A stretch of DNA of 64,000 nucleotides from Nocardiopsis eucommiae (GTDB lineage Bacteria > Actinomycetota > Actinomycetes > Streptosporangiales > Streptosporangiaceae), in NCBI GenBank assembly GCA_018388625.1, contig CP074402.1, forward strand, positions 1,054,001-1,118,000, in the 5' to 3' direction. Position numbers and translations under genes: made by a program. A model generated the notes under the pieces. The model made no database searches. It was not told the DNA's origin and saw only the letters and a list, made by a program, of their open reading frames with translations. This document shows positions 3,480-63,743 of this stretch, in pieces (the stretch's first letter is position 1; every line of letters begins with the position of its first letter).

Positions 3480-4948
3480 ATGTCGGACCCCACCCCCGCG
3501 AAGAAGGCCCCCGCCGAACCCGGGGACCCCCGCGCAAACGCTCCTCCGCCGCGTTGGCCGTGCTCCAGAGGCTCGGCCGGAGCCTGATGATGCCCATCGC
3601 GGTCCTGCCCGCCGCCGCGATCCTGCTCCGCCTCGGACAGGACGACCTCCTCGGAGCGGACGGCCTGGCCGGGATCGACGGGATGGGCTGGATGCAGCCG
3701 GTCTCGGGTGCCGTGGGCACCGCCGGTGAGGCGATCTTCGAGGCCCTGCCGCTGCTGTTCGCGATCGGTGTCGCGATCGGCTTCGCCCGGCGCGCGGACG
3801 GCTCGACCGCCCTGGCCGCCGTGGTCGGCTACCTGGTGTTCGACCGCGTGGCCACCTGGACGATGGTCACCTTCGACGGCCCGGCCGGGGACATCGGGTC
3901 GCGGCTCGTCACCTATCCGCTCGCGACCGATCCGGTGACCCGTGAACCGGTCGCGGACCCGGAGGCGGTCAACGCCGTCCTCCCGATGATCAACCACGCC
4001 GTCAAGAACCCCACCGACGTGCTCGGCGGGATCGTGGTGGGCCTGGTGGCCGCCGTGCTGTGGCAGCGCTACCACCGGATCAAGCTGCCCACCTGGCTCG
4101 GCTTCTTCGGGGGCCGCCGCTTCGTCCCCATCGTCACCGCCCTGGCCGGTCTGGGCATGGGCGTGGTGCTGGGCCTGGTCTGGCCGATCGTCGGCATGTG
4201 GATCCAGAACCTGGGCGAGGCCCTCATCGGCGCGGGAGCCCTCGGAGCCGGGATCTACGGGGTCGTCAACCGCATCCTGCTGCCGCTGGGCCTGCACCAC
4301 GTGGTGAACTCGTTCGTCTGGTTCGTCTCGGGCACCTACACCGACGAGAGCGGCGTGGTCTCGCACGGGGAGATCACGCGCTACTTCGCCGGTGACCCGG
4401 AGGCGGGCACGATGCTGTCCGGCTTCTTCCCGGTGCTCATGTTCGGTCTCCCGGGAGCGGCGCTCGCGATGTGGCTGACCGCGTCCAGGGCCAGACGCGC
4501 GCAGATCGGTTCCATCATGATTCCGGCCGCGCTGACCGCCTTCGTCACGGGCATCACCGAGCCGGTGGAGTTCGCCTTCATCTTCGTGGCGCCGGTGCTC
4601 TTCGCGGTCCACATCCTGCTCACCGGCGTCTCGCTGGCGTTGATGAACCTGCTGGACGTCCAACTGGGCTTCGGGTTCTCGGCGGGGCTGATCGACCTGC
4701 TGCTGAACGCGACGAAGAGCAACACCGAGGGGCTCGGCGTGCTGTTGCTGTTCGGCACGTTCTACTTCCTGGTCTACTTCGGGATCTTCTACGTCCTGAT
4801 CAGCAGGTTCAACTTCCCCACCCCCGGACGCGAGCCCGACCCCGACGAGCCCGGAGGGACGCCGCACACGGCCCCGGCCACGGCGGACGGCACGGCCGAG
4901 GCCGGACCGGACGCCCCGAGCGGCGGGGATCCCGGCCGCTCCGGCTGA
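3480..4948 (+). CDS. nagE2: PTS EIIC membrane permease, N-acetylglucosamine type (one frameshift)
   Basis: A 489-residue membrane transporter domain that imports and channels a PTS sugar for phosphorylation. Around ten hydrophobic segments are visible, with the glucose-family signature GITEPVEFAFIF near the middle of the second half, and a hydrophilic Pro/Asp-rich C-terminal tail. EIIB and EIIA are separate genes downstream, as in the Streptomyces GlcNAc system. The ATG at 3480 with GGGAGG upstream is the best start, but its frame leaves the transporter frame: one base is missing at the G run 3522-3525 or the C run 3527-3531. Without repair only a TTG at 3554 would be available. GlcNAc specificity is inferred from neighbours. 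The symbol follows Streptomyces usage. Confidence 0.88.
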
Positions 4949-5066
4949 GCCCGGCGCCCCCGGCGACGATCGACCACCGTGCCGACCCTGGCGTGTGAGG
5001 CACACCACCTCTAAGCTCGGCTCAGACCCCCGGGTCACGTGATCCCGGGTAGAGCACGGAGGGCAC

Positions 5067-5303
5067 ATGTCGGACAAGGCAACGGCGATCGTCGCCGGTT
5101 TGGGCGGCGCGGCCAACATCGAGGACATCGAGGCCTGCATCACTCGGCTGCGCACCGAGGTCAGTGATCCCGCTCTGGTCCGGGAGGCGGACCTCCGGGC
5201 GGCGGGCGCGCACGGCGTCCTGGTCTCGGGCAACGTGGTCCAGGTCGTGGTGGGCCCGGAGGCGGACTCCCTCACCGACGACATCCAGGACCTGCTGGAA
5301 TAG
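5067..5303 (+). CDS. nagF: PTS EIIB phosphotransfer protein, N-acetylglucosamine type
   Basis: A 78-residue stand-alone EIIB domain of the glucose/GlcNAc family. The phosphorylated cysteine is Cys24 in the motif IEACITRLR, which receives phosphate from EIIA and passes it to the sugar entering through EIIC. It lies 118 bases after the EIIC gene, with its own ribosome site (GGAGGG) just ahead of ATG 5067, so it may have a separate promoter. A GTGTG-AGG-CACAC inverted repeat lies in the gap upstream, but I see no DasR-like site there. The frame is intact and length is typical. Domain identity is secure; specificity is inferred from neighbours. Confidence 0.93.
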   Translation: MSDKATAIVAGLGGAANIEDIEACITRLRTEVSDPALVREADLRAAGAHGVLVSGNVVQVVVGPEADSLTDDIQDLLE

Positions 5304-5385
5304 GGGTTCGGCAAAGTCGGGCCTTTGTACTCTTTTGGCCGCCCCTTTTCCGGGTTAAGTCCCCCTCCCAGGGAAGACCTCCTCC

Positions 5386-5872
5386 ATGTCAGACCTGAAC
5401 GGTGCGCTGCGCGTACTCTCGCCCGTCGCCGGAACCGCCATGTCCCTGGACACGGTCCCCGATCCGGTGTTCTCCCAGAGCATGGTCGGCCCCGGTGTGG
5501 CCGTCCACCCCGAACCGGGACAGGAGGGCGGCCAGGAGTCCGAACACGAGGCGGTCGCCCCGATCGCCGGGACCCTCGTCAAGCTCCACCCGCACGCCTA
5601 CGTGGTCATGGCCGCCGACAACAGACGCGGTGTCCTCGTCCACCTGGGCATCGACACCGTGCAGCTCGCGGGGAGGGGTTCACCCTCCTGGCCGAGGAGG
5701 GCACGGAGGTGGCGGCGGGCACACCGGTGATCCGCTGGTCGCCCGGCGCGGTCGCCGCCGCCGGTCGACCCTCGGTCGTGCCGGTGGTGGCCCTGGACGC
5801 CCAGCCGGGCGGCCTCGCGGACCTGGCCGCGGGAGCGGTCGAGCCGGGGAGGTCCTGTTCGTCTGGGAGTGA
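5386..5872 (+). CDS. crr: PTS EIIA (Crr-type) phosphotransfer protein (two frameshifts)
   Basis: A 162-residue EIIA of the glucose (Crr) family. The phosphorylated histidine is His86 in GVLVHLGIDTV, with a second conserved histidine in KLHPHAYV (~68-73). It takes phosphate from HPr and donates it to EIIB. Two single-base gaps interrupt the frame, at G runs 5670-5673 and 5846-5849; adding a G to each restores GEGFTLLAEEG and the normal ending EPGEVLFVWE. The gene follows EIIB by 82 bases, with GGGAAG before the ATG. In Streptomyces crr maps elsewhere with ptsI, so its placement beside EIIC and EIIB is notable. Both gaps look like sequencing undercalls. Confidence 0.9.
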
Positions 5873-5956
5873 GCCCCCGCCCCCGCCACGGCGGGGTGTG
5901 TCCTGCCCGCTCCGGCGAACGGGTAGTCTCCGGCCGCAACCAGCGATCCGGCGGAG

Positions 5957-7638
5957 ATGAAGTCCCTTATGAGATCGTCCGTGCCACGCGCCCTGGCCCC
6001 GGCCTGCGTGGCCCTCACCCTGATCACCACAGCCTGCACCACACCCGAGGAGGTGGACACCTCGCCCGAGAACGACCCCAGTGCGGAGGCCACGGCCGAG
6101 CCCTTCGAGCCGGTCCTTGCCCCGCAGCTGCTCGCCGAGATGGACCTGGACGACAAGATCGGCCAGCTCCTGGTCCTGACCGCGCAGGGCACCACGGCCG
6201 CCGACAACGCCGCCCAGATCGAGGCGCACAGGCCCGGCGGCGTCATCTACTTCGACGCCAACCTGAACGACGCCGAGCAGATCGCGCGGATGTCGGCGGG
6301 GATGCAGGACCAAGCGGCCGAGGTCGGTCAGGGGTGCCCCTGTTCGTCAGCATCGACCAGGAACAGGGCCTCGTGGTGCGCATGCCCGTGGGCACCCTGT
6401 TCCCCGATGCCATGGCTGTCGGTGCCACCCGTGACACCGACCTCGCCGCGCTGCGGGCGTCGACCACGGCGGACGAGCTCCTCGCGGTCGGCGTCAACAT
6501 GAACTACGCGCCCGACGCCGACGTCAACACCGACCCCAACAACCCGGTCATCGGTATCCGCTCCTTCGGCTCCGACCCGGAACTGGTGTCGGAGATGGTG
6601 CTGGCCGAGTCCGACGCCTACTCCGAGCACGGCGTCGTGCCGGTCATCAAGCACTTCCCCGGACACGGCGACACCGACGTCGACAGCCACACGGGGCTGC
6701 CCGTGATCGACCTGCCCCGGGACCGCTGGGAGGCCGAGCACCTGCCGCCGTTCCGGGCCGCCGTGGACGCGGGCGTGGACGCCATCATGACCGCGCACGT
6801 GCTCATGCCGCAGCTGGACCCGGGCGAGGACCCGGCCACCCTGTCGCCGGTGATCATCGACGAGATCCTGCGCGGCGAGCTCGGCTACGACGGGGTGGTC
6901 ACCACCGACGCCCTCAACATGGAGGGCGTGCGCCAGACCCACGACGACGGCGAGGTCGCCGTCCGCGTGGTGGAGGCGGGGGTGGACCAGCTCCTCATGC
7001 CGCCGGACCCCGGAGCCGCCGTGGCGGCGATCCGGGAGGCGGTCGAGAGCGGACGCCTCACCGAGGAGCGCATCGACCAGTCCGTGCTGCGCGTCCTCAC
7101 ACTCAAGGAGAAGCGCGGCGTCCTGGAACGCGAGTCCGCCGACCCGGCCCAGGCCGACGCGGCCATGGAGAACCCCGAGCACGCCGAGGCCGCCCAGCGG
7201 GTGGCCGACGCCTCGGTCACCCTGGTCCGGAACGAGGCGGACCTCCTACCGCTGGACGCGGGCACGCGCGTGCGCGTCCAGGGTGAGGGCGCCGACCGGA
7301 TCGCCCCGGCGCTGACCGACGCCGGACTGGAGGTCGTGGACGGCGGCGAGGACGTGCTGGTGGTCGGCACCCGGAACGCGCGGGGCTCCGAGGAGCAGCG
7401 CGGGATGGTGGCGCGCGGGCGCTCCCAGGGCACCCCGGTGGTCGTGGTCGCCCAGGGCGGCCCCTACGACCTGGAGGCCTTCCCGGACGTCGACGCCTAC
7501 CTGGCCCTGTACTCGGCGGTCGAGGTCTCCCGGGTGGCTGCCGCCCGGGTGATCGCCGGAGAGGTCGACCCCTCCGGGACACTGCCGGTGGACATCCCCG
7601 GTGCCGACGTGGCCTCCGGAACCGGACTCGGCTACTGA
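5957..7638 (+). CDS. nagZ: NagZ-type beta-N-acetylhexosaminidase lipoprotein, GH3 (one frameshift)
   Basis: A 560-residue glycoside hydrolase family 3 enzyme that releases GlcNAc from muropeptide or chitin fragments. A signal peptide ends in the lipobox-like LITTAC, so it is probably membrane-anchored outside the cell, like mycobacterial LpqI. The diagnostic motif KHFPGHGDTDVDSHTGLP is present, with its catalytic Asp/His dyad, followed by the nucleophile segment TTDALNMEGV. The C-terminal ~170 residues resemble the GH3 second domain. One G is missing from the run 6331-6334; restoring it gives QGVPLFVSIDQEQGL. Located behind the PTS genes, it likely supplies the GlcNAc that they import. ATG 5957 or 5969 may be the true start. 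Confidence 0.92.
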
Positions 7639-7776: not shown

Positions 7777-8433
7777 ATGAACGGCACCCGACGAGGGGTC
7801 ATCTCCGACTGGGGCGGTGTACTCACCCCACCCCTGCCCGAGGGAATCCGGGCCTGGCTCAGGTCCGACCGCATCGACATCGAGCACTACCACGAGGTCA
7901 TGCGTCCGTACTTCGACGACAGCGTGCCGGACAACCCCGTGCACGCCCTGGAACGCGGCGAGATCGAGACCCACCTGTTCGAACGCGACCTCGCCGCCCT
8001 GCTGCGCTCCACCCACGGCGCCCCGGTACGGGCGCAGGGTCTGATCGAGCGCATGTTCGCGCACTTCGACCCGGTCGACGGCATGTACGAGACCCTGCGT
8101 TCGGCCCGGGGGAGCGGACACGCGACCGCGCTGCTGTCCAACTCCTGGGGCAACGGATACCCGCGTGACCACTTCGCGGCCACCTTCGACACGGTGGTGA
8201 TCTCCGGCGAGGTGGGCATGCGCAAGCCCGAGGAGCGCATCTACCTGCTCACCTGCGAGCAGCTGGGCCTGGAGCCCGAGGACTGCGTGTTCATCGACGA
8301 CCTGGCGCACAACATCGAGACCGCCGAGTCCCTGGGGATGACCGGGATCCTGCACACGGACGTGGAGAGCACCCGTCGGGCGCTGTCCCGCTTCCTGGCC
8401 CCGGAGGACGACCACCAGCGGCAGCCGGTCTGA
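7777..8433 (+). CDS. HAD-superfamily hydrolase (subfamily IA, YihX-like)
   Basis: A 218-residue haloacid-dehalogenase-fold hydrolase. All four motifs are visible: motif I ISDWGGVLT with the nucleophile Asp followed by Trp-Gly, as in the epoxide-hydrolase-N/YihX branch; motif II LLSNSWG; motif III lysine in GMRKPEERIY; motif IV FIDDLAHNIETA. Members act on sugar phosphates and other small phosphate esters. ATG 7777 is chosen because AAGGAGG sits seven bases before it; the frame opens earlier without such a signal. It follows the nagZ terminator and is 54 bases from the DUF6912 gene. A link to amino-sugar phosphates is only positional. Confidence 0.85.
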   Translation: MNGTRRGVISDWGGVLTPPLPEGIRAWLRSDRIDIEHYHEVMRPYFDDSVPDNPVHALERGEIETHLFERDLAALLRSTHGAPVRAQGLIERMFAHFDPVDGMYETLRSARGSGHATALLSNSWGNGYPRDHFAATFDTVVISGEVGMRKPEERIYLLTCEQLGLEPEDCVFIDDLAHNIETAESLGMTGILHTDVESTRRALSRFLAPEDDHQRQPV

Positions 8434-8487
8434 CCTCGTCGGGTTCTTTGGGAAACTCGTAGGGACCCGATCCCGCCTGGAGAGCCC

Positions 8488-8945
8488 ATGTACGTCTTCC
8501 TGCCCAGTACCGTCCCCGCGCTCGCGGCCCTGCTCGACCGGGGTCGACTGGAGGGGAGGCCCTTCCGGCCTTCACCGCCGACGCCGGTCCCGACGGGGAC
8601 CCCGAGGAGGCCGAGTACGACGCCATGTACGCGGCGGCCGAGGCCTCCCTGCGCATGCTGTCCGAGGACCCCGGGGCGCCCCGCCGCCGCGTGGTCCTCG
8701 CCGCCGAGATGCCCGACGCCGCCGTGGAGCACGAGGCCCGCCACGCGGACGGGGTCGCCCGCGTCACCGTCCGGGGCGGCGTGCCCTACAAGAAGCTCCG
8801 GTCCGCGCACCTGGACGACACCGACGCGGCCGCCGACATCGCCGAGGCCGCGGCCGAGCCGGCCTCCGAAGCCGCCGAGGACCACGAGCTCATGTGGTTC
8901 GCGGTCCAGGAGATCCGCTACCTGGTCGAGGAGTCCCAGACGTAG
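8488..8945 (+). CDS. DUF6912 family protein (one frameshift)
   Basis: A 152-residue actinobacterial protein of unknown function. The N-terminus MYVFLPSTVPALAALLDRG and the central RRRVVLAAEMPDAAVE segment match the DUF6912 pattern, and it ends DHELMWFAVQEIRYL. One G is missing from the run 8553-8556; adding it joins the N-terminus to the remaining frame. GTG/ATG choice is not an issue, since ATG 8488 follows GGAGAG. The last 28 bases overlap the 3' end of a GNAT remnant on the opposite strand, marking the edge of the accessory island. Function is unknown and neighbours give no strong hint. Confidence 0.78.
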
Positions 8946-9067
8946 CAGTACGCGGGTACCCCGGGGGATCCGTCGAAGGCGTGCGTGATCGCGCCCAGAC
9001 GCTCCCAGCCCAGGCGTTCGTACAGGCGGGTGGCGGCCCGGTCCTTGGCTTCTTCGGGAGCGCTCAC
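8918..9067 (-). pseudogene. C-terminal remnant of a GNAT acetyltransferase
   Basis: A 49-codon frame whose product contains ATRLYERLGWERLG, the last helix and strand of a GNAT N-acetyltransferase, and ends PAYCYVWDSSTR. The acetyl-CoA-binding part is absent, so it cannot be active alone. Its GTG at 9067 overlaps the stop of the methyltransferase upstream (GTGA), but this may be chance. It overlaps the end of the DUF6912 gene. I read it as the leftover of a gene cut off when the methyltransferase segment arrived. A tail domain of the methyltransferase is another possibility. Confidence 0.5.
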
Positions 9068-10184
9068 CGGAGCCTGTGCTCCCAGGGGCCGAGGGCACCT
9101 GCTCGGATCGTGTGTGTTCTGCGGTCGGGAGAGACCTCCAGGGTGAACTCCGTCAGCTCGGGCCAGCCCGCCGCGTCGAGTTCGACGTAGGCCTCTCCCA
9201 GTTCCTTGCCGAGGTCGCGGGGACCGGCCCCCGTGGTGGTGCCGTCCGGCCACAGGTGCACCCAGGAATCAGCCGTGCTCAGCGCGATGACCGGGGCGGA
9301 GTCACCGTCCCAGGGGCGTCTTCCCTCCTCAAGACGCAGATCTGGGGCGGCCAGGGTCAGGCGGGTGAGCAGGTCACGGTCGACCAGCTCTCGGGAGCCG
9401 ACAGGGAAGCCACCCACCTGTTCCATCTCCTGGGCGGTCCCCGCGAAGGTGTCTCGGGGAGCCTCTGAGTGCGGTCGCGCATGATCGAGGCATCGCACAG
9501 GAAGTCGCCCCGGAGGGCGTGGGACAGGGCGACAACCGGGGTGGGGCCGTCGTAGTCGTAGGGCGCCCAGGGGAGTACGGCCACGCCCGGAGAGGTGAGG
9601 GAGGTGGTCCACGACTCGGGTACGTGCCTCACCGCGCAGGTGGCGATGACCGAGTCGTAGGCGTCCGCATCGGGGGCGGTGGTTCCGGTGATGACTCGCA
9701 CTCCGGTTCCAAAGAGCCGGGACCGGGCGTGTGCGGCGACGTCGGGGTCGATTTCCAACGAGGTCACGTGCCCGGTGGGTCCGACCAGAGAGGCGAGGAT
9801 CGCGGCGTTCCAGCCGGTCCCGGTACCGATCTCCAGCACCCGCATTCCGGGTTCCACCCCGGCCGCCGCGATCATGTCCGCCATGAGCTGCGGTGCCAAG
9901 GAGGAGGAAGTGGCGATGTTGGACGAGCCGCTGCCCCCGTCATTGGCCTGGATGACCACGGCGTCATCGTCGTAGACGTACGCCGCCCACCGCGCGAGGT
10001 TGGCGGTTCGGTAGAGCGGTAGGCCCTGGCTGCTGGGCCAGACCAGGTCCGGGATGAACCGGTGCCGGGGGTGGTCGGTGAAGGCGGCACGGATCGTGTC
10101 GGTGGTGTCCATTCGGTCGACCAGCCGCGCATGGAGGTTGTCCAGGTTCACGCCGTACCGCTTTCCTTGAGGCACTTTTGCCAT
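9064..10184 (-). CDS. PIMT-like protein methyltransferase (one frameshift)
   Basis: A 373-residue SAM-dependent methyltransferase of the protein-L-isoaspartate O-methyltransferase type. Residues ~65-80 include GLPLYRTANLARW, and the SAM loop VLEIGTGTGWNAAILA is at ~135-150. Beyond the catalytic domain is a ~140-residue extension (EMEQVGGFPVGSRELVDRD, then WVHLWPDGTTTG) absent from housekeeping PIMT. This extended form is known from actinobacterial peptide-modification systems and from genes beside XRE/DUF397 regulators. One base is missing at 9456-9459 (G run on the plus strand). The ATG at 10184 follows a small Cys-containing gene on the same strand, with a hairpin between. The substrate may be that protein; this is inference. 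Confidence 0.82.
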
Positions 10185-10207
10185 GGATGATGTCCGGCCG
10201 TGCGGAT

Positions 10208-10240
10208 GGGCGGCGCCGCGTTGCGAGGACGGCGCCGCCC
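10208..10240 (-). terminator. Hairpin between small gene and methyltransferase gene
   Basis: A perfect 11-base-pair stem (10208-10218 with 10230-10240) and 11-base loop lies between the stop of the 105-residue gene and the methyltransferase start. It has no T run. It may act as a partial terminator or 3' stabiliser, giving more transcript of the first gene than of the second, as in peptide operons. Confidence 0.6.
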
Positions 10241-10258
10241 AACGGCACGGAAGGGGCT

Positions 10259-10576
10259 CTAGCGGACGCGGTAGCTCACCCGCCTCGTCTCGACGACACT
10301 CGCCCCTTCGGGAAGACCGCCCTCGTCGTCGCCCTCCAGGAGGACACGCATCCAGATGTCGCTGTCCTTCCGGTAGGGGTTCAGCCGGTCGAGCCGCTCC
10401 CAGAAGCTGTGCCCGATCGCGACGCAGGAGCACGCGCAGGTCTGCGTGTTGTAGCTCGGAGCCAGCGGTGAGATTCGCCCCGCCAGCGAGATCCCGTTCT
10501 CGTCGGGCTCACCGCCCCGGATGATCTGGATGACCTCGGTGTACAGCTCGACATCAGGCACGAAGGTTGACGCCAT
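10259..10576 (-). CDS. Small Cys-motif protein, possible modified-peptide precursor
   Basis: A 105-residue protein I cannot assign to a family with certainty. The N-terminal half contains an acidic leader-like stretch FVPDVELYTEVIQ, then a Gly/Ser/Pro-rich part with the cluster TQTCACSC around residue 48. The second half is charged (ERLDRLNPYRKDSDIW, then SVVETRRVSYRVR). The leader vaguely recalls FxLD-type lanthipeptide precursors, whose operons carry PIMT-like methyltransferases, but the FxLD motif is not exact and the C-terminal half is too long. No lanthipeptide synthetase or protease gene is nearby. ATG 10576 has GGGAG upstream and shares a regulator-like intergenic region with the divergent XRE gene. 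It may instead be an ordinary small protein. Confidence 0.55.
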   Translation of the reverse strand: MASTFVPDVELYTEVIQIIRGGEPDENGISLAGRISPLAPSYNTQTCACSCVAIGHSFWERLDRLNPYRKDSDIWMRVLLEGDDEGGLPEGASVVETRRVSYRVR

Positions 10577-10638
10577 GGAGTCAGCTCCCTACGTAGAGGA
10601 GGCGACACCCGATATGGGTGTCCCGCTGACTCCAGTAT

Positions 10639-10686
10639 GAACTTGTGCAAAGTCAAGTTCAAGCAGTCGTCTTGATTTTGTTCAAG
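10639..10686. promoter_or_regulatory. Operator-like inverted repeats between divergent genes
   Basis: Two inverted repeats share a CAAG core: GAACTTG-N8-CAAGTTC (10639-10660) and CTTGA-N6-TCAAG (10671-10686). A looser TTCAA/TTGAA pair follows to about 10702. The region is AT-rich against its surroundings and sits between the small Cys gene and the XRE gene, so these are good candidate sites for the XRE regulator on both promoters. Confidence 0.6.
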
Positions 10687-10743
10687 TTATTCTCGTATTG
10701 AAGGTCGGGACTACGATCGAGACACCCCCTAGAAGGAGGATTC

Positions 10744-11601
10744 GTGACAGGAACAGGCCATGCTCCAGGCGTGCGGCGCCGCAGACTGTCCGCTGCCCTG
10801 CGGAGGTTGCGGGCCGAAGCCGGTCTCTCCTCGCCTGAGGTGGCCAAGGAACTTGGCTGGTCCCCCACTAAAGTCACTCGTGCTGAGCGCAACGAGTGGC
10901 GACGTCCGGCCGTGAAGGACGTGGAGGCGATCCTTACGCTCTATGGGGTGAAGGGGGAGGAGCGGGCGCATCTTCTCAGTCTGACTGAGGAAGCTCGCGG
11001 GCGCAGCGATTGGCACAAGTACGCTGACCTCTTCACTGGGCCGCTGCCTGACCTGGAGGCCGAGGCGGTCCGAATCCGCTCGTACGAGGCCTTGCTGATC
11101 CCTGGGCTACTCCAAACTCCCGACTATGCTGCGGCGATCTTCGAGTCCAGTCAGATCGTTCCGCCGGAAAATACCCAGCGCAAGGTGGAGTCTCGAATGG
11201 CCCGCCGAAGCGTCCTCGATGCTCCCAACGGGCCCCGATTCGTCTCTGTCATCGACGAAGCTGCTCTACGCAGGGTGGTCGGCTCACCCAAGGTGATGGT
11301 GGAACAGTTGTGTTTTCTGGCGGGGATGGCCGCGCACTACAAGGTAACCGTGCTGGTGCTGCCGTTCGAGTCGGGAGCTCACCCGGCAGTTGAAGGGGCC
11401 TTCGCACTGCTTGACTTCCCCAGCCCGGAACCGGGGATCGTCAGCATCTCCACAGGGGCGGAATCCCTGTACGTGGAAGACGAGGCGTACGTGGATAGGC
11501 ATACGCTGATCTTCGACGGCATCCACAACCTGGCCTTGGATCCCAAGAAGTCTCTCGACCTCATCGAATCCATCGCCGCCGAATACGACAAGCGAGCCTG
11601 A
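10744..11601 (+). CDS. XRE-family regulator with DUF5753 domain
   Basis: A 285-residue helix-turn-helix regulator. Residues ~12-70 form an XRE domain (LSAALRRLRAEAGLSSPEVAKELG, WSPTKVTRAE), and ~95-280 the DUF5753 sensor domain (YEALLIPGLLQTPDYA; later VLPFESGAHPAVEGAF). This architecture is abundant in Streptomyces and relatives, where it pairs with a DUF397 protein as in the WhiJ and Scr1/Scr2 systems that control development and secondary metabolism. GTG 10744 is preceded by a strong GAAGGAGG. The DUF397 gene starts two bases after its stop, so they are co-translated. CAAG-core repeats in the upstream gap are probable targets. The lower GC of parts of this gene hints at transfer. Family assignment is secure. 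Confidence 0.93.
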   Translation: MTGTGHAPGVRRRRLSAALRRLRAEAGLSSPEVAKELGWSPTKVTRAERNEWRRPAVKDVEAILTLYGVKGEERAHLLSLTEEARGRSDWHKYADLFTGPLPDLEAEAVRIRSYEALLIPGLLQTPDYAAAIFESSQIVPPENTQRKVESRMARRSVLDAPNGPRFVSVIDEAALRRVVGSPKVMVEQLCFLAGMAAHYKVTVLVLPFESGAHPAVEGAFALLDFPSPEPGIVSISTGAESLYVEDEAYVDRHTLIFDGIHNLALDPKKSLDLIESIAAEYDKRA

Positions 11602-11603
11602 TC

Positions 11604-11918
11604 ATGCTTCTGGAGTTCCGCAAGTCCTCCTACTCCGGGCACCAGGACAACTGCGTTGAGGTCGCGCCCATCCTCACCTTCCGCAAGTCCTCCTACTCAT
11701 CCGGCGGGGACAACTGCGTCGAGGTAGCCCAGGTCGCTCCAGCCTTCCGCAAGTCCTCCCACTCCTCCTCCCAGGAAAACTGCGTCGAGGTCGCTGACCT
11801 GCCCACCGGTGCTGCCATCCGTGACTCGAAGAACCCCGACCACGGCTTCCTGCCGATCGGGGCCTCCGAGTGGTCCGCCTTCGCGCAGTTGATCGCCGCT
11901 CGTCCCTCGCTCCTCTGA
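11604..11918 (+). CDS. DUF397 protein with a triplicated signature motif
   Basis: A 104-residue DUF397 protein, the usual partner of XRE-DUF5753 regulators. The family normally has one copy of the W/F-x-KSSYS...NCVEVA element near its N-terminus. Here it occurs three times: FRKSSYSGHQDNCVEVA (~5-21), FRKSSYSSGGDNCVEVA (~26-42) and FRKSSHSSSQENCVEVA (~48-64). After the last copy the normal ending follows (AIRDSKNP, then ASEWSAFAQLI). The copies differ in synonymous and other positions, so they are not an assembly duplication. The gene is translationally coupled to the regulator. Triplication could give several contact sites for DUF5753 partners; that is inference. Confidence 0.92.
   Translation: MLLEFRKSSYSGHQDNCVEVAPILTFRKSSYSSGGDNCVEVAQVAPAFRKSSHSSSQENCVEVADLPTGAAIRDSKNPDHGFLPIGASEWSAFAQLIAARPSLL
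11616..11794 (+). repeat. Three imperfect tandem repeats inside the DUF397 gene
   Basis: Units begin with TTCCGCAAGTCCTCC at about 11616, 11679 and 11745, so the periods are 63 and 66 bases (multiples of three, frame kept). Each encodes one KSSYS...NCVEVA element. Divergence between units suggests an old duplication under selection. Confidence 0.85.
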
Positions 11919-12070
11919 GGTTCACGTTTCAGCGTCCCGGCCCTGGCCCGGGCTGGGACGCCGTCGGGTGTGCCTCGCGCGTCACTCCTGGCCCGGGACA
12001 AGATTCCTTGCCCCCGATGCCCGCCCGGATCACGAACGGTGGGCGTCGCCTCTGCGGGGCTGCGTCGGGC

Positions 12071-12375
12071 TCAGCCGCCGCCGTCGCCCCCTCCGTCCCC
12101 ACCGTCTCCGCTGCTGCCCGTGCCACCGCCACCGCCGCCACCACCGCTCCCGCCGTCGGAGTCCCAGTCCAGCCACGCGTTGAGGGCGGCGAACGCCACC
12201 ACCGTCCCCGAGGCGAGCAGGATCAGGGGAACGAGCGCGGAACCGTCGCCGTCCAACACCCGGCCCAGGAGCCCCCGCCGAGGTAGGCCACGACGGCCAT
12301 CCCGCCGGTCAGACCTGCTGTCAGGGCGAGCACGTCCTTGCCGTCCACGGGGCCTCCAGGGGGCGCGGGGACCAT
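12071..12375 (-). CDS. Small two-helix membrane protein with Gly/Asp tail (one frameshift)
   Basis: A 101-residue protein with two hydrophobic segments (VLALTAGLTGGMAVVAYLGG, and LVPLILLASGTVVAFAALNAW) and a C-terminal tail made almost only of Gly, Ser and Asp after WLDWDSD. Unknown function. The frame needs one extra base at the C run 12272-12276 on the plus strand; the repair joins two helices that otherwise sit in different frames. The ATG at 12375 has only a weak GAGG upstream. The gene is divergent from the HAD gene 100 bases away. Because the tail is low complexity and the start weak, the call is moderate; the two helices in conserved spacing favour a real gene. Confidence 0.55.
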
Positions 12376-12475: not shown

Positions 12476-13222
12476 ATGGTGGCGTCCCCGAACCCCGACG
12501 CCGAGGAGTCAGCCATCAGCCGCCTGGTGCTATGGAACATCGACCTCACCCTCCTCGACGTGGGGCAGGTGATGCGGGCCGCCTACGCCGAGGCCTTCGA
12601 GAAGGTCACGGGCGAGCCGCTGGTCTACCTGACCTCGGCCTCGGGCCGCACCGACTCCGAGATGTTCTTCGAGTTCTGCGCCCGCAACTACGTCGAGCTC
12701 GAACCCGACACCGAGGTCCTGGGCGACTTCCTTGCCGCCCTGGAGGCCTCCTTCGCCTCCCGCCACGAACAGCTCCTGGCCAAGGGCCGGGTCATGCCCG
12801 GCGCCGCCGCCTCCCTCGCCGCCGTGGCCGCGCTGCCGGACACCGTGCAGACCGTGGTGAGCGGCAGCACCCGGGCCAACGCCATCGCCAAGCTGGTGGC
12901 CTTCGGCCTGGACACCCACCTCAACCTCGCGGTGGGCGGGTTCGGCTCCGTCAACTACCCCAAGTCCAGCCTGATCCAGTCCATCAGGCTGCACGCCTCC
13001 GGTGAGGGCGGCCGGGCCTACGCCGAGGACGAGACGGTGTTCGTCACCGGCTCCGCCCCGGACGTGCGCGCGGCCCTGATCGGCGGCGCGATCCCCGTCG
13101 CGGTGCTCAACGGGTCCACGACCGAGGGGCAGTTGCGGGACGCCGGAGCGCAGATCGTGCTCCCGGACCTGAGCGATCCCCGGGCCGTGATGACCGCCGT
13201 CCACCAGGCCACGACGCGGTGA
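12476..13222 (+). CDS. HAD-fold phosphatase-like protein with altered motif I
   Basis: A 248-residue HAD-superfamily protein resembling phosphoglycolate phosphatases. Motif I reads LVLWNIDLTLLD: the first Asp of the usual DxD pair, the phosphate-accepting nucleophile, is Asn. Motif II is TVVSGSTRANA, and motif IV VFVTGSAPDVRAALIGG lacks the acidic pair that normally binds magnesium. Similar WNIDLTL proteins are, as far as I recall, common in actinobacteria, so the change may be family-wide and the protein may not be a phosphatase. ATG 12476 is the most likely start, because upstream sequence is low complexity. It stands alone between a small membrane gene and the glutamate dehydrogenase leader. 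Confidence 0.78.
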   Translation: MVASPNPDAEESAISRLVLWNIDLTLLDVGQVMRAAYAEAFEKVTGEPLVYLTSASGRTDSEMFFEFCARNYVELEPDTEVLGDFLAALEASFASRHEQLLAKGRVMPGAAASLAAVAALPDTVQTVVSGSTRANAIAKLVAFGLDTHLNLAVGGFGSVNYPKSSLIQSIRLHASGEGGRAYAEDETVFVTGSAPDVRAALIGGAIPVAVLNGSTTEGQLRDAGAQIVLPDLSDPRAVMTAVHQATTR

Positions 13223-13471: not shown

Positions 13472-13588
13472 AATTCACAAGCCAGCCACAGAAGTTCACA
13501 GGTCGCTTGACGAGCCACACACGTCACATGACCGGGTGTCCACTTCCGCGCTCGTGCGACGTTGCTCACAAAGGAGTGAGAGATCCCT

Positions 13589-16500
13589 ATGTCCGGGCAA
13601 TCCGACGTCATCCTCCAGAAGCTGCTCAAGGACGCGGCCTCCCGGTGGAGTCCGGGGGACCGACTGAGCCCCGAGGCCGCCGACGCGGTCCGCGCCTTCC
13701 TTCCCCTCTACTACCGGCACACGGACCCCGAGGAGATCAGCGGGCGCAGCCCCGAGCAGATCTGCGGGACCGCCGAGGTCCACCACGCCTTCGGCGCCGA
13801 GCGTGCGCCGGGCCGGGCCAAGGTCCGCGTCCACACGCCGACGCTCGAACGGGACGGCTGGGAACAGCAGACCAGCATCGTCGAGATCGTCACGGACAAC
13901 GCGCCCTTCCTCGTCTCCTCCGTGACCATGGCCCTCAGCGACCTGGGCGCCGGAGTGCGGCTGATCATCCACCCGCAGATGACCGTCGGCCGTGACCTGT
14001 CCGGCCGCCTCATGGAGATCGACCCGGAGATCGGCGGCGAGGGCCTCCTGCCCGTCGACGAGTCGTGGATGCACATCGAGATCGACCGGCAGAGCGACCC
14101 CGAGCGCGTCAAGGAGATCACCACCCGGCTGGAGCGCGTCCTCAACGACGTCCGCTACGCCGACGAGGACTCCGCCAAGATGAGCGACCGGGTCATCCGG
14201 ATCGCCGACGAGCTCTCCGCCTACCCGGACCGCCTGGTCGCCGGCGGCGTCGACCCCCGCGAGATCGGGGAGAGCGTCGACTTCCTGCGCTGGATCGCCT
14301 CGCGCCACTTCACCTTCCTCGGCTACCGCGAGTACGCCCTGGTGACCGACGAGAACGGCGACGACTCCCTGCGCCCCGAGCCCGGCAGCGGCCTGGGCAT
14401 CCTGCGCATGGACCCGTCCGCCTCCACCCGGTTCTCGGCGCTTCCCCCGGAGATCCGCGGCAAGGCCCGCGAGCCCTACCTGCTGGTGCTCACCAAGGCC
14501 AACTCCCGCGCCACCGTCTACCGGCCCAAGTACCTGGACTACATCAGCGTCAAGAAGTTCGACGCCCAGGGCAACATCGTCGGGGAGCGCCGCTTCCTCG
14601 GCCTGTTCTCGTCCCAGGCCAACACCAGCAGCATCGCGCAGATCCCGATCCTGCGCCGCAAGCAGGCCGAGGTCCTGGCCCTGGCCGGGTTCGAGGCCGA
14701 CAGCTACGACGGCAAGGACCTGATCGAGCTCCTGGAGACCTTCCCGCGCGAGGAACTCCTCCAGATCCCCGTGGGCGAGCTCTACAGCATCGTGCGCGGC
14801 GTGCTGCGGCTCCGCGACCGGCGCGGCACCAAGCTGTTCATGCGCCGCGACCCGTACGGCGGCCGCTACATGTCCTGCTTCGTGTACATGCCGCGTGACG
14901 AGTACAGCACCCAGGTGCGCCTCGACATCCAGAAGGTCCTGGCCGACGCCTTCCACGGCGCCACCATGGACCACAACGTGATGATCGGCGCCGCCCCGCT
15001 GGCCCGCCTCTACCTGGTGGCCCGCGCCCAGAGCGGACAGACCCTCGCGGACATCGACCAGGTCGAGCTGGAGGAGAAGGTCCGCCAGGCGGCCCGCTCC
15101 TGGGACGCCGACTTCGACGACGCGCTCGTCGACGAGTTCGGCCCCACCCGCGCCACCACGCTCAAGGAGCGCTACGGCCCCGGGCTCACCGAGGCCTACA
15201 AGATCGACAACGACCCCAGGGTCGCCGCCCGGGACATCCTCCGCATCGAGGAGCTGCTCCAGCGCACCTCCGACGAGGACCGCGAGGGCGAGTTCTCCGC
15301 CAGCCTCCACCAGCCCGAGGGCGCCGCCCCGGGACCTGGCGCTTCCGCCTGGCCCGGATCGGTCAGCCCATCTCGCTCTCCCAGGTCCTGCCGGTCCTGG
15401 AACACCTGGGCGTGGAGGTCGTCGACGAACTGCCCTACGACATCACCGTCGGCGGGGTGGGCCGGGTCTGGATCTACGACTTCGGCCTGGGCCCGCTGGA
15501 GGCCTCCGACCTCTCCCCGGGCCGTCTCAAGGCCCTCTTCGAGGACGCCTTCGACGCCTCCTGGCGCGACCTCGGTGAGTCCGACCGGTTCAACGCCCTG
15601 GTCGTGCGCGCCGGACTCGACTGGCGTCAGCTCACCGTGCTGCGCGCCTACGCCAAGTACCTGCGCCAGACCGGATCGACCTTCACCCCCGACTACCTGG
15701 CCGACGTCCTCGTCGCCAACGTCGGGATCGCCAACCTGCTCGTGGAGCTCTTCGAGGCCCGCTTCGACCCCGACCAGCCCGACGAGGGCCGCGCCGAGCG
15801 CGGCGACGTGATCGTCGGCAAGATCGAGAGCGAGCTGGACGGAGTGGCCAGCCTGGACCACGACCGCATCCTGCGCTCGTTCCTCGCGGTCATCCAGGCC
15901 ACCCTGCGCACCAACCACTACCAGGGCGGCGCCGAGGGGCGCCCCTACCTGGTGCTCAAGCTCAACCCGCAGGAGATCCCGGACCTGCCCCACCCGCGGC
16001 CCCGGTTCGAGATGTACGTGTACTCGCCGCGCGTCGAGGGCGTCCACCTGCGCTTCGGCTCCGTCGCCCGCGGCGGCCTGCGCTGGTCGGACCGGTTCGA
16101 GGACTTCCGCACGGAGATCCTCGGCCTGGTCAAGGCGCAGATGGTCAAGAACTCCGTCATCGTGCCGAGCGGCGCCAAGGGCGGGTTCGTCTGCAAGCGC
16201 CTGCCCGCCGGCGGAGGCCGCGAGGAGGTCATGGCCGAGGTCGTGTCCTGCTACAAGCAGTTCATCAGCGGCCTGCTGGACGTCACCGACAACCTGGTCG
16301 ACGGCCGGGTCGTGCACCCCGAGCGCACCGTGCTGCACGACGGCGACGACTCCTACCTGGTGGTCGCCGCCGACAAGGGCACCGCGACCTTCTCCGACAC
16401 CGCCAACGCGATCTCCGAGGAACGCGGCTTCTGGCTGGGCGACGCCTTCGCCAGCGGCGGCTCCGTGGGCTACGACCACAAGGCCATGGGCATCACCGCC

Positions 16501-46474: not shown

Positions 46475-46499
46475 GCGGGTCGGATCGAGGAGATCGGCA

Positions 46500-47510: not shown

Positions 47511-47565
47511 AACAGAACCGGTGAAACCATGACAGTCCGGTCGTCGTCGGTGGGGGTGAACGGGG

Positions 47566-54639: not shown

Positions 54640-54872
54640 CCGCCCAGTCTAGGGCGTGTTCCTTGGATCATCCCGCGCTCGCGTTGATGGCGGCTCCCCC
54701 CGCAGGTGGAAGCATCCACGGGAACACGCCCCGGGCGTGCGGTGCGTGTGAGGGGGAGCGGACGGGAGCCAGAGGAGCGCGCGTCACGCGGTGTGGGGCT
54801 GGCCGGGCGTCGGGAGGGCACCCGAGGGGCGGGCCGGAGAGGGGACACCGGGAGCGCGTATAGGCTCGTCGG

Positions 54873-55267
54873 GTGTCTTCGCGTCCCTTCACCATCGTCA
54901 TCGCCGCCGTGCTGGAGGCCCTGATCGGGCTGGTCTCGGCGGTCGCCGGAATCTACAGCCTGTACACCGCGATCGCCGGGCGGGCCACCGATCCGGTCTC
55001 CTCGGCACTCCCGCTCACCGTGATCGGTGTCGGGGTCGGCGCGCTGCTCGTCTTCGTCGCGTACGGGCTCTGGAACCTGCGCGACTGGGCCCGCACCCCG
55101 GTGGTCGTCACCCAGATCTTCATGGCCGTGGTGGCGTACTACATGTACACGGGGAGCAGTACGTGATCTGCGCCGTCATGCTCGCCGTGGCGGTGGCCGC
55201 GGCGGCCGCCGTCCTGGCGCCGCCGACGACCGCGGTGCTGTTCTCCGACACCGAGGGGCGCCGGTAA
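54873..55267 (+). CDS. Small four-helix membrane protein (one frameshift)
   Basis: A 131-residue integral membrane protein: helices at IVIAAVLEALIGLVSAVAGIYSL, PLTVIGVGVGALLVFVAYGLW, PVVVTQIFMAVVAYYMY and VICAVMLAVAVAAAAAVLAPP. WNLRDWARTPVV between helices two and three is typical of small actinobacterial membrane proteins of unknown function. One G is missing from 55151-55154; with it the fourth helix joins. The GTG at 54873 has no ribosome site, but TAGGCT lies six bases upstream, suggesting a leaderless mRNA. Function unknown. Confidence 0.75.
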
Positions 55268-55297: not shown

Positions 55298-56099
55298 TCA
55301 GTCGTCCGTGGTGAGCGCCTGACGCAGTTGGGCCAGGGTGCGCGCGAGCAGACGCGACACGTGCATCTGGGAGATCCCGAGCTCCTGGGCGATCTGCGAC
55401 TGCGTCATGTTCCCGAAGAAGCGCAGCAGCAGGATGCGCTTCTCCCGGGGCGGCAGCTGCTCCAGGAGCGGCTTCAGTGACTCCCGGTACTCCACGCCCT
55501 CCAGGGACTCGTCGACGATCCCCAGGGAGTCGGCCACCGCCGGGGCGTCCTCGTCCCCGCTGTCGGGGGCGTCCAACGACACCGTCGAGTAGGCGTTGGC
55601 GGACTCCAGGCCCTCCAGCACCTCCTCCTCGGTCATCTGGAGGTGCGCGGCCAGTTCCGCGACGGTGGGGAGCGCCCCTCGCGCTGCGACAGGTCGCTGA
55701 CCGCCTTGGTCAGCGAGAGCTTCAGCTCCTGGAGACGGCGCGGTACCCGCACCGCCCAGCCCTTGTCCCGGAAGTGGCGCTTGATCTCACCGACGATCGT
55801 GGGGTCGCGTACGTGGAGAACTCCACCCCGCGCTCCAGATCGAACCGGTCGATGGACTTGATCAGCCCGATCGTGGCCACCTGCGTGAGGTCGTCCAGCC
55901 ACTCGCCCCTGTTACGGAACCTGCGGGCCAGGTACTCCACCAAGGGCAGGTGGAGCTCGACCAGTTCGTCGCGGATCGCCCTGCGCTCGGGCGCGTCCGC
56001 GTCGAGGTCGTTAAGGCGCTCGAACAACTCTCTCGCGCGCGCCCGGTCGGGCACCGCGTGCTCGGTCTTCGCTGTCAGAGCGGGCCCCCTTTCGCTCAC
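55298..56099 (-). CDS. Sigma-B/F-like alternative sigma factor (two frameshifts)
   Basis: A 267-residue group 3 sigma factor (SigB/SigF type, general stress). Region 2 has VEYLARRFRNRGEWLDDLTQVATIGLIKSIDRFD and FSTYATPTIVGEIKRHFRDKGW; region 3 VPRRLQELK; region 4 LPPREKRILLLRFFGNMTQSQIAQELGISQMHVSRLLAR. Bases are missing at the plus-strand G runs 55801-55804 and 55667-55670; repaired, it gives the normal YATPTIVG and SPTVAELAAH. GTG 56099 overlaps the stop of rsbW (GTGA), and GGAG lies upstream. RsbW should bind it. It is close in sequence to Streptomyces SigB/F-group factors; which paralog is not certain. Confidence 0.92.
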
Positions 56100-56521
56100 G
56101 CCGGCTCCAGGGCGCCACGGCGTTTGTACAGGACGATGTAGACGCGGTCGTCCGGACCGACGCCCGCGTCGACATCCCCGGCGAGAGCGGAGAGCACGGT
56201 CCAGGCGAAGGTGTCACGTGCGGGCAGGCGTCCGTCCGCCGTCATCACCGAGACCGAGATGCGCATCCCGTCGGGGGTGAGTTCGAATTCCGTGGTCAGT
56301 TCTGTGCCGGGAAGCGCCTGGGAGAGGAGCATCGCGCAGGCCTCGTCAACCCCGATCCTCAGGTCCTCGATCTCGTCGAGGGTGAAGTCGAGTCGGGCGG
56401 CCAGCCCTGCCGTCGCCGTGCGCAGGACAGACAGATAAGCGCTGTCGGCGGGCATGTTGACGGTGACAGCGTCGCGTACACCGGTGGCGTCGGCCGTGGG
56501 CACAGCGGTTTCTTCGGTCAC
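56096..56521 (-). CDS. rsbW: Anti-sigma factor RsbW-like serine kinase
   Basis: A 141-residue HATPase_c-fold protein that should bind and silence the sigma factor encoded next to it. The ATPase region DLRIGVDEACAMLLSQ (~62-77) is the N-box; the usual Asn is replaced, a variation seen in actinobacterial RsbW-like proteins, so kinase activity on an anti-anti-sigma partner is uncertain. GTG 56521 has GAAGGAGG upstream. The gene overlaps the sigma gene, so both are made together. No RsbV-like gene is in the window. Confidence 0.88.
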   Translation of the reverse strand: MTEETAVPTADATGVRDAVTVNMPADSAYLSVLRTATAGLAARLDFTLDEIEDLRIGVDEACAMLLSQALPGTELTTEFELTPDGMRISVSVMTADGRLPARDTFAWTVLSALAGDVDAGVGPDDRVYIVLYKRRGALEPA

Positions 56522-56761
56522 GTCCCTCCTTCGGGGGCGAGGTTGCCGCTTGAGAGCAATGTATCTCGTTTCACCCTGCCACTGACGCAGGGAGAAGGGA
56601 TCGTGTCCAGCCCTCGGAGGGCGAACACGAGACGAATGGTCCGCCCGGGCCCCTCGCGGAAGCCAGTGCGGTCAGCGCGTCGCCGTCCGGGCGACGGACC
56701 GTCAACACATCCCTGGGGGCGTTCCCAGGGTACGCGCCGCGTCGGCGGGGCGCCGACGACC

Positions 56762-59321: not shown

Positions 59322-60238
59322 CTAGACGGCCGGGTTGACCTCGGCCTCTTCGAGGGCTCCGCCCTCGATGCCCCACTCCGCGAGGACCTCCTCGTAGGAG
59401 CCGTCCTCGATGATGGAGTTGAAGGCCGCGGCGACGGCCTCGGAGAGCTCCTCCTGCTCCTGGTTGACGACGACGCCGTAGGGCGCCGCGTCGTACTGCT
59501 CACCGATGAACTCCAGCTGCTCGCCGGTCTGCTGGAGCGCGTAGAGGGCGGTCGGCAGGTCGGCCAGGGAGGCGTCGTTCAGGCCGGAGACGATGGTCTC
59601 GGTGGCCTGGGGCTGGGTCTGGAACTTCTCGATGGTGATGGCCTCCTCGCCCGCCTCGACACAGGCCTCGCTGCGGGCCTCGATGTCGGTGTCGTGGGTG
59701 GTGCCCGTCTGCACGGCGATGCGCAGGCCGCACGCGTTGTCCGGGTCGACGCCGTCGGGGTTGCCCGCCGGGGCGAACCACTGGGTGCCGGAGGAGAAGT
59801 AGCTGACCATGTTCACCGCCTCCATGCGCTCCTCCGTGACGGTGAAGGAGGAGGCGCCGAGGTCGTAGGTGCCGGTGTCGACGCCGATGATGATCGAGTC
59901 GAAGGTGGTGGGCTCCCAGTTGGCCTCCAGGCCGAGCTTGCCCAGCGCCGCCTCGATGAGGTCGACGTTGAAGCCGAGCACGGTCTCGCCGTCCTCGTCC
60001 AGGTACTCGCCGGGCGGGTAGGAGGCCTCGACGCCGATGGTGACGGAACCGGCCTCGGCCACCGCGTCGGGCAGCAGCGCGGCCAGCTCCTCGTCGACGG
60101 CCACGTCGGGGGCCTGGGGGCGTCCGCGTCCTCGGAGGCCCCCTCGCCGTTGCCGCAAGCCGCCAGGGCCAGGACGCCGGCCGTTGCGAGGGCGGTGAGG
60201 TAGGTCCGGGGCTCGGACAGGGGCTTGCGCAGGGCCAT
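59322..60238 (-). CDS. Polar amino-acid ABC importer, substrate-binding lipoprotein (one frameshift)
   Basis: A 305-residue periplasmic-type binding protein, lipid-anchored. The signal peptide runs LRKPLSEPRTYLTALATAGV and the lipobox is LAAC (~26). SVTIGVEASYPPGEYLDEDGETVLGFNVDLIEAALGKLG is the SBP_bac_3 N-lobe start; the ligand Arg-type segment is CGLRIAVQTGTTHDTD. One base is missing at the plus-strand G run 60116-60120; with it the signal peptide joins the mature domain through DADAPQAPDVAVD. ATG 60238 has AAGGAG upstream. It is the first gene of the importer operon, divergent from malic enzyme. Confidence 0.93.
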
Positions 60239-60612
60239 GGTGGGTCTCCTTCGGGGAGCACGGAGTGCCTGGTCGAGGGTGGGTCCGCGCCCTCGCGGGA
60301 CCGACCAGTGGTGATATGGGATGGATGCGGCGCCATGGGCGACACGTCGGTGACGTTCCATTCTGTCGACCCGCGATTTTCCTCCGGTCACCGTTGTGAG
60401 AGAATTGCGTAACGGGTCATCCCCGTGAGATGCGGACGCGCAGTACTCGTATAAGAGTCCGGCGAAGACCATCCCTCCCGGCGCACACCCGGTCATGGCC
60501 GACCGGTGCCGACGAGGGCCCCCTGGCACCCTGACGTCTTCGCGCGCGCTCCGTGGCCCACCGTCCACGTCATGGCCGACGCGGACGTACAGCAGACCGA
60601 GGGGTTTGAGTA
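60239..60612. other. Divergent promoter region: ABC importer / malic enzyme
   Basis: 374 bases without a gene. Two AT-rich patches (about 60355-60415 and 60445-60460, with GTATAAGAG) presumably contain the divergent promoters. I see no clear GlnR pair or long palindrome. Confidence 0.5.
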
Positions 60613-61818: not shown

Positions 61819-61856
61819 GACGGGGCCCGGAGACCGCGCGGTCTCCGGGCCCCGTC
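61819..61856 (+). terminator. Perfect 38-base palindrome after malic enzyme
   Basis: The 19-base arm 61819-61837 (GACGGGGCCCGGAGACCGC) is followed at once by its exact complement 61838-61856. It lies 12 bases after the stop. No T run follows. Confidence 0.8.
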
Positions 61857-62001
61857 GCGGTGGGGCCAGGTCCACCGGGAGCCGGGGTGACACGGGTACC
61901 CGGAAGCGGGGAGCGGGCCAGTGCCCGGGAGGGGGCCGCGTCCGTAGGTTCTCCAGGGACATCCCGCGCCGCCTGCGGCCACACGACCCCCTGGACACCC
62001 C

Positions 62002-63551
62002 GTGAACGCTCTCTCCCCAGCCCCGCCCGCCCTCCGTGCGGGCGGTACCGCCCGTCGGATCGCGACGGCGTCGGCGGTCGTGCTCGCCGCCGTCTCGGCG
62101 CTGCTGCTGACACCCCGGCCCTACGAACTGTCCGCCGCGACCAGCGGGGACGCGGAGCTCGCCGCGCTGGTGCGGCAGGGGATCGACGACACCACCGGCT
62201 TCCACGGGCTGTCCGTGGCCGTCGTCGAACCCGGCCCCGAGGGGGACCTCCGGGTACGCTCCGCCGGGCTCGGAGAACAGGGGGACCGGGGTGAGACGGT
62301 GGACGGGCGCACCCCGTTCGGCTCCGCCTCGGTCGCCAAGGTCCTGCCCGGGATGCTGCTGGCCGACATGGTCGACCGCGACGAGGTCGGCCTGGACACC
62401 ACGGTCGGGGAGCTGCTGCCCGACCTCGGTTTCACGGACCCGGCGGTCGCCGCCCTCACCGTGGAGGAGCTGGCCACCCACACCTCGGGGCTGTCCCGCG
62501 AGGACACGACCCCGCCGCAGACTCTCTGGCAGTTCGCCGCCAAACGGCACCCCTCCCCGCCCACGTCGGTCGACGGGTTCCTGCGGACCACGGCGGAGGA
62601 CGCCGTGGTCGACCCCGCGCTGAGGGGTGCCAACCACTACTCCAACACCGGCTTCTCCCTGCTCGGGCACGCACTGGCGGAACACCTGGAGACCACCTAC
62701 GCGGACCTCGTCCGGGAGCGGATCCTCGACCCACTGGGCATGGCGGACACCGAGGTGTGGACCCGGGTGGGCGGAGAGGTGCCCGACCCCCGTGTGCACG
62801 ACGCGGACCGGGGGCGCCCGATCGAGCTGGACCGCTGGTCGGCCCACGGGCCTCAGGGCGGGGTGACCACGACCGCGCACGACCTCGGCCTCCTCCTGGC
62901 CGCCATGATGGACGGCTCGGCGCCCGGAGCGTGGTCGGCCGAGCCGATCGCGCCCGGCGACGTCGACCGCCGCGAGCAGGGACTCGGGTGGTACGTGGAG
63001 ACCCTCGGCGGCCGGGCGATCACCTCCCACGGCGGCAACGCCACCACCAACGGGCACACCGCCTGGATCGGCTGGTCCGGTGACCGGGGCGCCGTCGTCC
63101 TGTCCAACACCCACCGGTTCAGCGAGGACGTCGGGATCCGGCTCCTGGGGGTGGACCAACCGAGTCCCGACAACGCGGCGGGGAGCGGGTGTACTCGGCG
63201 GCCACGGTGGCGTTGACCCTGCTCCCGGTGCTGGCATGGCTGGGCTTCGCGGCACGCCGCCGCCCGGGACGCTGGGTGCGCCGTCCCGCGGACCGCCTCG
63301 GTGCGGTGTCCCACGGGACCGTGGCGGTCGCCCTGCTCGCCTACGCCCACGCGGCGGGCTTCTGGCACCTGGTCTCGCCGTGGGTGTGGACCACGGGCGC
63401 GGGCCTGGCCGTGGCGGCGGTGCTGGTGAGCGTCCACCGGTGGGAGCGGCTGCCGGTCGCACGCGGGCCACGGCCCTGGGCGCGCTGGCTGTCCACGGCC
63501 CCGCCCGCGCTGGCCGGGTTGGTCCTGCTGGTGGCCCTGGCCCTCGTGTGA
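62002..63551 (+). CDS. Beta-lactamase-family serine hydrolase with membrane tail (one frameshift)
   Basis: A 516-residue class C beta-lactamase/DD-peptidase-like protein. An N-terminal helix (ASAVVLAAVSALLLT) exports it; the catalytic SxxK is SVAK in FGSASVAKVLPG (~113), the YxN is YSN in NHYSNTGFSLLG (~213), and the HxG-type third motif is SHGGNATTNG (~338). After one missing G in the run 63180-63183, four C-terminal helices follow (VALTLLPVLAWLGFAA ... ALAGLVLLVALALV). This tail resembles esterase EstB/PbpE-like anchored enzymes. GTG 62002 lacks a clear ribosome site. Substrate unknown; peptidoglycan peptides or esters are likely. Confidence 0.88.
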
Positions 63552-63564
63552 GCGCCCGGGGCCC

Positions 63565-63743
63565 TCACAGCAGTTCGGCGGGGAGCCGAACTCCTCGGTG
63601 AGCAGGGCGAAGGCCGTGCGCAGGTCAGCCAGGGCGGCGTCCGGGGTGTCCCCCTCGCCGTGGGCGGAGACCCCCGCGCGGAGCACGGCGCGGGCGCACC
63701 AGACCCCGTCCTCGTCCTGCTCGATCGTGTACGGAACCAACAC
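63565..63743 (-). CDS. HicB-like (UPF0150) small protein (one frameshift)
   Basis: A 59-residue protein of the HicB-like fold: LVPYTIEQDEDGVWCARAVL, then GVSAHGEGDTPDAALADLRTAFALLTEE. The DG-W and GxT-xDA-A pattern is typical of the HicB antitoxin half without its DNA-binding domain. One base is missing at the plus-strand G run 63580-63583; with it the protein ends GSPAELL. GTG 63743 has a very strong GGAGGAGG upstream. No HicA toxin frame is seen beside it, so it is a solitary member and may not be a toxin-antitoxin gene. Confidence 0.75.

Follow-up and report, generated by a model that had tools for sequence, protein, structure and literature searches.

We describe here the reading frames in a 64,000-nucleotide stretch of DNA, hereafter the window, that spans positions 1,054,001-1,118,000 of contig 1 in a Nocardiopsis assembly of 6.10 Mb, comprising two contigs, with a completeness of 84.39%. 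Many genes in the window are interrupted by one-base deficits next to short runs of guanine or cytosine (G/C runs), as had been proposed in an earlier note made from the letters of this DNA, and are intact in related genomes. Among 18 relatives from the same genus, 17 are listed at 99-100% completeness and the remaining one, an assembly of 550 contigs, at 85%. The closest reference, N. prasina DSM 43845, which gives the nearest match to the release factor 2 encoded in the window, is largely collinear with the window, and the aligned blocks are 87-97% identical.

Proteins of at least 80 amino acids (aa), called by a script in five same-genus genomes, served as queries in alignments to the window that permitted frame steps. 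A protein was discarded if its best tblastn segment fell below 60% identity, and an alignment if it spanned less than 60% of the protein. Frame steps were merged within 30 bases into clusters, and a cluster was considered supported when it was found with at least two proteomes. Gene footprints are the genes recognised by the analysis script. As a control, the same procedure was applied to each of the five relatives, with the other four as queries (that is, four proteomes compared to five for the window).

Close to the beginning of the window lies a gene for the EIIC component of a phosphotransferase system (PTS; 3349-4945, plus strand; the intact protein of N. prasina matches PF02378), with a -1 change at 3511-3535 found with all five proteomes and another near 3479 found with one, the latter probably being the first site of the earlier note. 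The same strand encodes a crr-like PTS EIIA (5386-5869; PF00358; changes at 5669 and 5845-5851), a glycoside hydrolase of family 3 (5873-7635; PF00933; change at 6330-6336) and a DUF6912 protein (8419-8942; PF21853; change at 8552-8567), where each change is found with 5/5 proteomes. The gene for NAD-glutamate dehydrogenase, gdh (13588-18465, plus strand; PF05088), changes frame at 15327 with four proteomes; in the same-genus relatives, it forms a single open frame of about 1,625 aa. At this site, blastn against N. prasina at first gave a two-base surplus rather than a deficit, as a real or conserved frame change might have done, but the relatives' single open frames and the protein alignment point to a codon-length difference beside a one-base deficit.

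On the minus strand, a Polyketide_cyc2-domain gene (26518-27235) has a change at 26710-26716, found with two proteomes, and an amidohydrolase gene (27539-28789; PF01979) has one at 27749, found with four. An FMN reductase gene (29030-29818, plus strand) contains a mixed site at 29239-29269, to which we return below. Two plus-strand genes have no Pfam match at 1e-8, namely, 30946-32794, with changes at 31245, 31340 and 32272 (5/5 each), and 32772-34688, with changes at 33332, 33493, 33957 and 34049 (three to four proteomes each). The aftD gene (36606-40861, plus strand; PF11847), for which the aligned N. prasina open frame starts further upstream, at 34867, has changes at 38647-38653 and 40689-40725. 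Also on the plus strand are an SRAP-family gene (41870-42720; PF02586), with changes at 41944 and 42366 (three proteomes each), and thiC (42734-44616; TIGR00190), with a change at 43302 (5/5).

Further along, a minus-strand gene that matches no Pfam family at 1e-8 (44668-45552) has a change at 45181-45187, found with four proteomes, and a predicted plus-strand footprint of doubtful reality (45542-46500), which overlaps an opposite-strand footprint, has one at 46455-46458, found with two. Two adjacent HD-domain genes (47565-50302, plus strand) together have changes at 48770, 48966, 49247 and 49378 (two to four proteomes each), whereas single changes are found with 5/5 proteomes in the pdtaS sensor kinase gene (51522-53063, plus strand; PF12282), at 52226-52229, and in a small gene, likewise with no Pfam family matching at 1e-8 (54872-55264, plus strand), at 55150-55156. 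On the minus strand, a sigma-70 family gene (55301-56100) has changes at 55670 and 55804, and the adjoining gene (56099-56629) has one at 56537, with three proteomes in each case. The last gene of the series, 59325-60319 on the minus strand, resembles those for amino-acid ABC transporter substrate-binding proteins, below curated cut-offs, and has a change at 60114-60120, found with four proteomes.

Among the gene names given in the earlier note, aftD, gdh (of the NAD type), thiC, pdtaS and the crr-like EIIA could be verified via the intact proteins of the relatives, whereas nagA and rsrA remain unconfirmed. The former may be the amidohydrolase gene; the latter would be the gene adjoining the sigma factor, which gave no NCBIfam match at 1e-20, Pfam not having been searched for that gene.

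Altogether, the 189 window alignments that were kept contain 143 -1 steps and 16 +1 steps, which merge into 59 clusters. The 37 supported clusters include 34 that are pure -1, two that are pure +1 and one that is mixed; the 22 clusters with single support (12 of -1 and 10 of +1), among them that at 3479, are outside this count. In the control relatives, 5-6 supported clusters each were found, of which 0, 0, 1, 2 and 2, respectively, are pure -1. Two of the 34 pure -1 clusters in the window, 12487-12502 and 45634-45636, have the same lengths in N. prasina and thus are not specific to the window, so that about 32 of these sites stand. The two +1 clusters, 29070-29079 and 45489-45507, sit at predicted gene starts, where the length of the window agrees with that of most aligned relatives, and at the mixed site, a C run is one base shorter than in four relatives. 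Supported clusters affect 23 of the 50 gene footprints, or 22 once 12487 is dropped. A G/C run of 4-5 lies within about 12 bases of 32 of the 34 -1 clusters, compared to 26% of random 25-base windows that contain a run of at least 4, a chance rate that is somewhat low because many of the clusters extend over more than 25 bases.

The earlier note had counted 37 one-base deficits in 26 genes, mostly in G/C runs of 4-5, and had held that no repair takes the removal of a base. An independent count also arrived at 37 clusters, although two of these are +1, one is mixed, and about 32 stand as deficits; many genes are indeed broken, albeit fewer than 26; the placement in runs of 4-5 is borne out, and so is the absence of removals. 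The five runs singled out there are present in the window (G4 at 5670, 6331, 43297 and 52230, and C4 at 15327), and each coincides with a -1 change found with four or five of the five proteomes.

Nucleotide comparison with N. prasina yields the same picture. One-base gaps in the blastn alignments of the window shorten it in 90 cases and lengthen it in 31, and among G/C runs of at least three bases on both sides, the window is one base shorter in 37 and longer in three. The loss depends sharply on run length. When the count is restricted to runs whose flanks are the same in the two genomes, over 178 kb aligned in the region of the window, 7/2685 runs of three (0.3%), 4/670 runs of four (0.6%), 23/164 runs of five (14%) and 21/22 runs of six (95%) are shortened. 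In a second region, 3 Mb away, the corresponding figures over 137 kb aligned are 23/131 for fives and 11/12 for sixes, so that, in the two regions combined, 32 of 34 sixes are exactly one base shorter and none is longer. The same holds when the window is compared with four relatives, where 12/13, 3/4, 5/6 and 5/6 of the runs of at least six are shortened, whereas among six pairs of relatives, shortened runs of this length were found only in G003-G007 (1/7) and G003-G014 (1/6), in our genome labels. No A/T run of five is shortened in either region, in line with the statement that the repairs never involve A or T. This is weak evidence because only six such runs are comparable, and the 16% rate of the G/C fives would yield 0/6 about one-third of the time; the absence of A or T mostly reflects the 71% G+C content.

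The deficit of long runs extends far beyond the window, as samples of the chromosome show. Per 100 kb, there are 6.2 runs of at least six bases in the window, 5.2 in the 464 kb that surround and include it, and 4.0 in 300 kb at 4.1-4.4 Mb, compared to 37.8-51.4 in the five relatives; 18 further family loci contain 205 such runs in 380 kb (range 23.7-90.0 per 100 kb). The ileS gene, which lies outside the window, is divided over two frames in this assembly but whole in all 11 same-genus genomes searched (N. prasina not being among them), and polc, which is full length in the same 11 genomes, here ends at profile position 956 of 1022. Nor does the loss respect gene boundaries. In the window, 7/8 sixes and 8/41 fives are shortened inside gene footprints and 3/3 and 4/20 outside, and of 33 shortened fives and sixes detected by blastn, 19 are inside footprints and 14 outside, counts that are small, in a partition where 'outside' may include unrecognised genes.

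Among the runs of five, sequence context matters as well. Of the 46 fives with AG directly after them on the G strand, 24 are shortened (11/23 and 13/23 in the window's region and the second region, respectively), compared to 22 of 249 for the other fives (12/141 and 10/108). In the window's region, fives lost are mostly G on the plus strand (G 20/89 vs C 3/75; without the AG contexts, G 9/68 and C 3/73), and for much of this difference, the cause is the polarity of GGGGGAG, the most strand-polar 7-mer of the two compared regions, with 83 copies on the plus strand and 24 on the minus strand in contig 1 positions 854,001-1,318,000, which include the window, and 8 and 69, respectively, in 4,100,001-4,400,000. 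A strand-specific cause of the G-biased loss was considered and rejected because the second region shows G and C equally affected (10/60 and 13/71). The heptamer is strand-polar in the relatives, too, and is contained in an architecture imparting octamer of Corynebacterium: the published account of Corynebacterium variabile describes G(A/T/C)GGGGGA and (T/C)GGGGGAG as architecture imparting sequences (PMC3219685). The excess loss at GGGGGAG could reflect a modified base in this motif that disturbs the base caller, and a modified architecture motif would be new, if true. We consider this quite improbable, and an ordinary sequence-context bias of the base caller accounts for the excess equally well.

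A few further observations do not concern the frame breaks. Positions 61,854-63,561 of the window gave no alignment to the fetched pieces of N. prasina; within this stretch, 62002-63216 is a serine hydrolase gene with a weak, below-cut-off resemblance to AmpH and class C beta-lactamases. Positions 9,000-12,300 are found in N. prasina, and in the other relatives, there is little gene coverage, with scattered matches of about 65-90% elsewhere in the genomes; this is perhaps a lineage-specific stretch. In the second contig, of which 100 of 106 kb were counted, the runs are strongly biased between the strands, with 245 G5 vs 98 C5 runs, and 22 G vs 3 C runs of at least six. A 20 kb piece of this contig has matches of 74-76% to parts of two Nocardiopsis flavescens plasmids.

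The changes go in one direction, depend on run length, ignore gene boundaries and spread genome-wide, the relatives are intact, and purifying selection acts on both sides of the junctions; the low completeness of an assembly in two contigs points the same way. We conclude, with a probability of about 97%, that these frame breaks stem from errors in the consensus of a long-read assembly for which correction with accurate reads was incomplete or lacking. This agrees with the earlier note, which had invoked homopolymer undercalling rather than decay, phase variation or programmed frameshifting. Under this explanation, the actual DNA of the organism would have longer runs, as those of its relatives suggest, and the platform would be a single-molecule method of the nanopore type. 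The base caller and the consensus would count G/C runs correctly up to four, and would drop one base from about one-sixth of the fives and from nearly all sixes; a drop in a gene would shift the reading frame, and a drop outside a gene would pass unnoticed.

Several observations weigh against this conclusion. The shorter runs are judged by comparison with relatives, and the references are not error-free: the controls also show a few supported frame changes, and one relative listed as 100% complete (G005) has rpoC in two pieces in different frames (contig 2, 265379-269064), which may be an error of its own. In the assembly under study, rpoC is intact, and the second contig is much less affected, with 25.0 runs of at least six per 100 kb. 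The changes at 33957 and 40689 are uncertain because the sequence around them is poorly conserved. To these are added the limits of the gene footprints, outside of which unrecognised genes may lie, and the strong excess of loss at GGGGGAG, for which run length alone does not account. Finally, the broken genes differ slightly from the rest. With codons up to 12 residues from a break excluded, the nonsynonymous share of the codons that differ from N. prasina is 0.296 in unbroken genes, and in broken genes it is slightly higher, about equally so before the first break (0.372) and after it (0.337); random single changes would give 0.744. Both sides of the junctions are nevertheless constrained, which speaks for the conclusion, although the broken genes are slightly less constrained than the unbroken ones.

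The alternative that fares best overlaps with uncorrected nanopore-type consensus and differs only in the machine: PacBio continuous long reads and pyrosequencing also leave homopolymer indels, and the same artefact could have arisen on one of these platforms. We regard this as unlikely. The assembly in two contigs argues for long reads, homopolymer indels have been reported as the hallmark of nanopore consensus left uncorrected, and such consensus commonly limits runs to about five bases.

Real gene decay, in which the strain would have lost these genes by one-base deletions, could draw on the slightly higher nonsynonymous share in broken genes; yet the sequence after the breaks is as constrained as that before them, runs outside recognised genes are shortened equally often, and the process provides no reason for the sharp threshold between fours and sixes or for nearly pure -1 changes. 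Moreover, decay would have reached ileS, a tRNA synthetase gene of a type that is essential in bacteria, and we find this explanation hardly credible. A mutator lineage whose G/C runs really do slip, and in one direction only, would also affect distant regions and non-coding DNA; however, real slippage lengthens runs as well, whereas none of the 34 sixes is longer, and a strain with a broken ileS should not live, so that a mutator, too, is highly improbable. Programmed or phase-variable frameshifting has next to no chance of being the explanation: single-base runs are common slippage substrates, but typical phase-variable tracts are longer than 4-6, and phase variation would call for a long tract in a surface or contingency gene that varies in both directions. 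Here, the relatives' tracts are 5-6, the change goes in one direction, the genes hit are unrelated to one another and mostly have housekeeping or regulatory roles, shortened runs also lie outside recognised genes, and in the relatives, each of these genes is encoded in a single frame.

The phenomenon is an artefact of a known class that reaches well beyond the window, and there is no biological novelty in it; its significance is that of a warning. With 22-23 of the 50 gene footprints in the window apparently broken and about half of the comparable GGGGGAG copies one base short, gene content, pseudogene counts, completeness and motif counts derived from this assembly will be wrong, and the assembly needs correction before use. 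The passages of the Homopolish paper considered here report that systematic nanopore errors are mainly homopolymer indels that shift frames, with a large excess of false pseudogenes before correction (PMC8011154), and those of the Kastor paper that deletion errors are most frequent after four to five equal bases (PMC12007338). As far as these passages go, the present case resembles the long-read cases described in both in its homopolymer indels, shifted frames, false pseudogenes and some dependence on k-mer context (PMC8011154, PMC12007338). It is unlike the Pseudomonas case in the Kastor passage, in which A/T errors exceed those in G/C (PMC12007338), in that the run errors here are in G/C, in a genome of 71% G+C. 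It also differs in the excess of loss at GGGGGAG, which we observe here and which does not figure in the Homopolish or Kastor passages (PMC8011154, PMC12007338).

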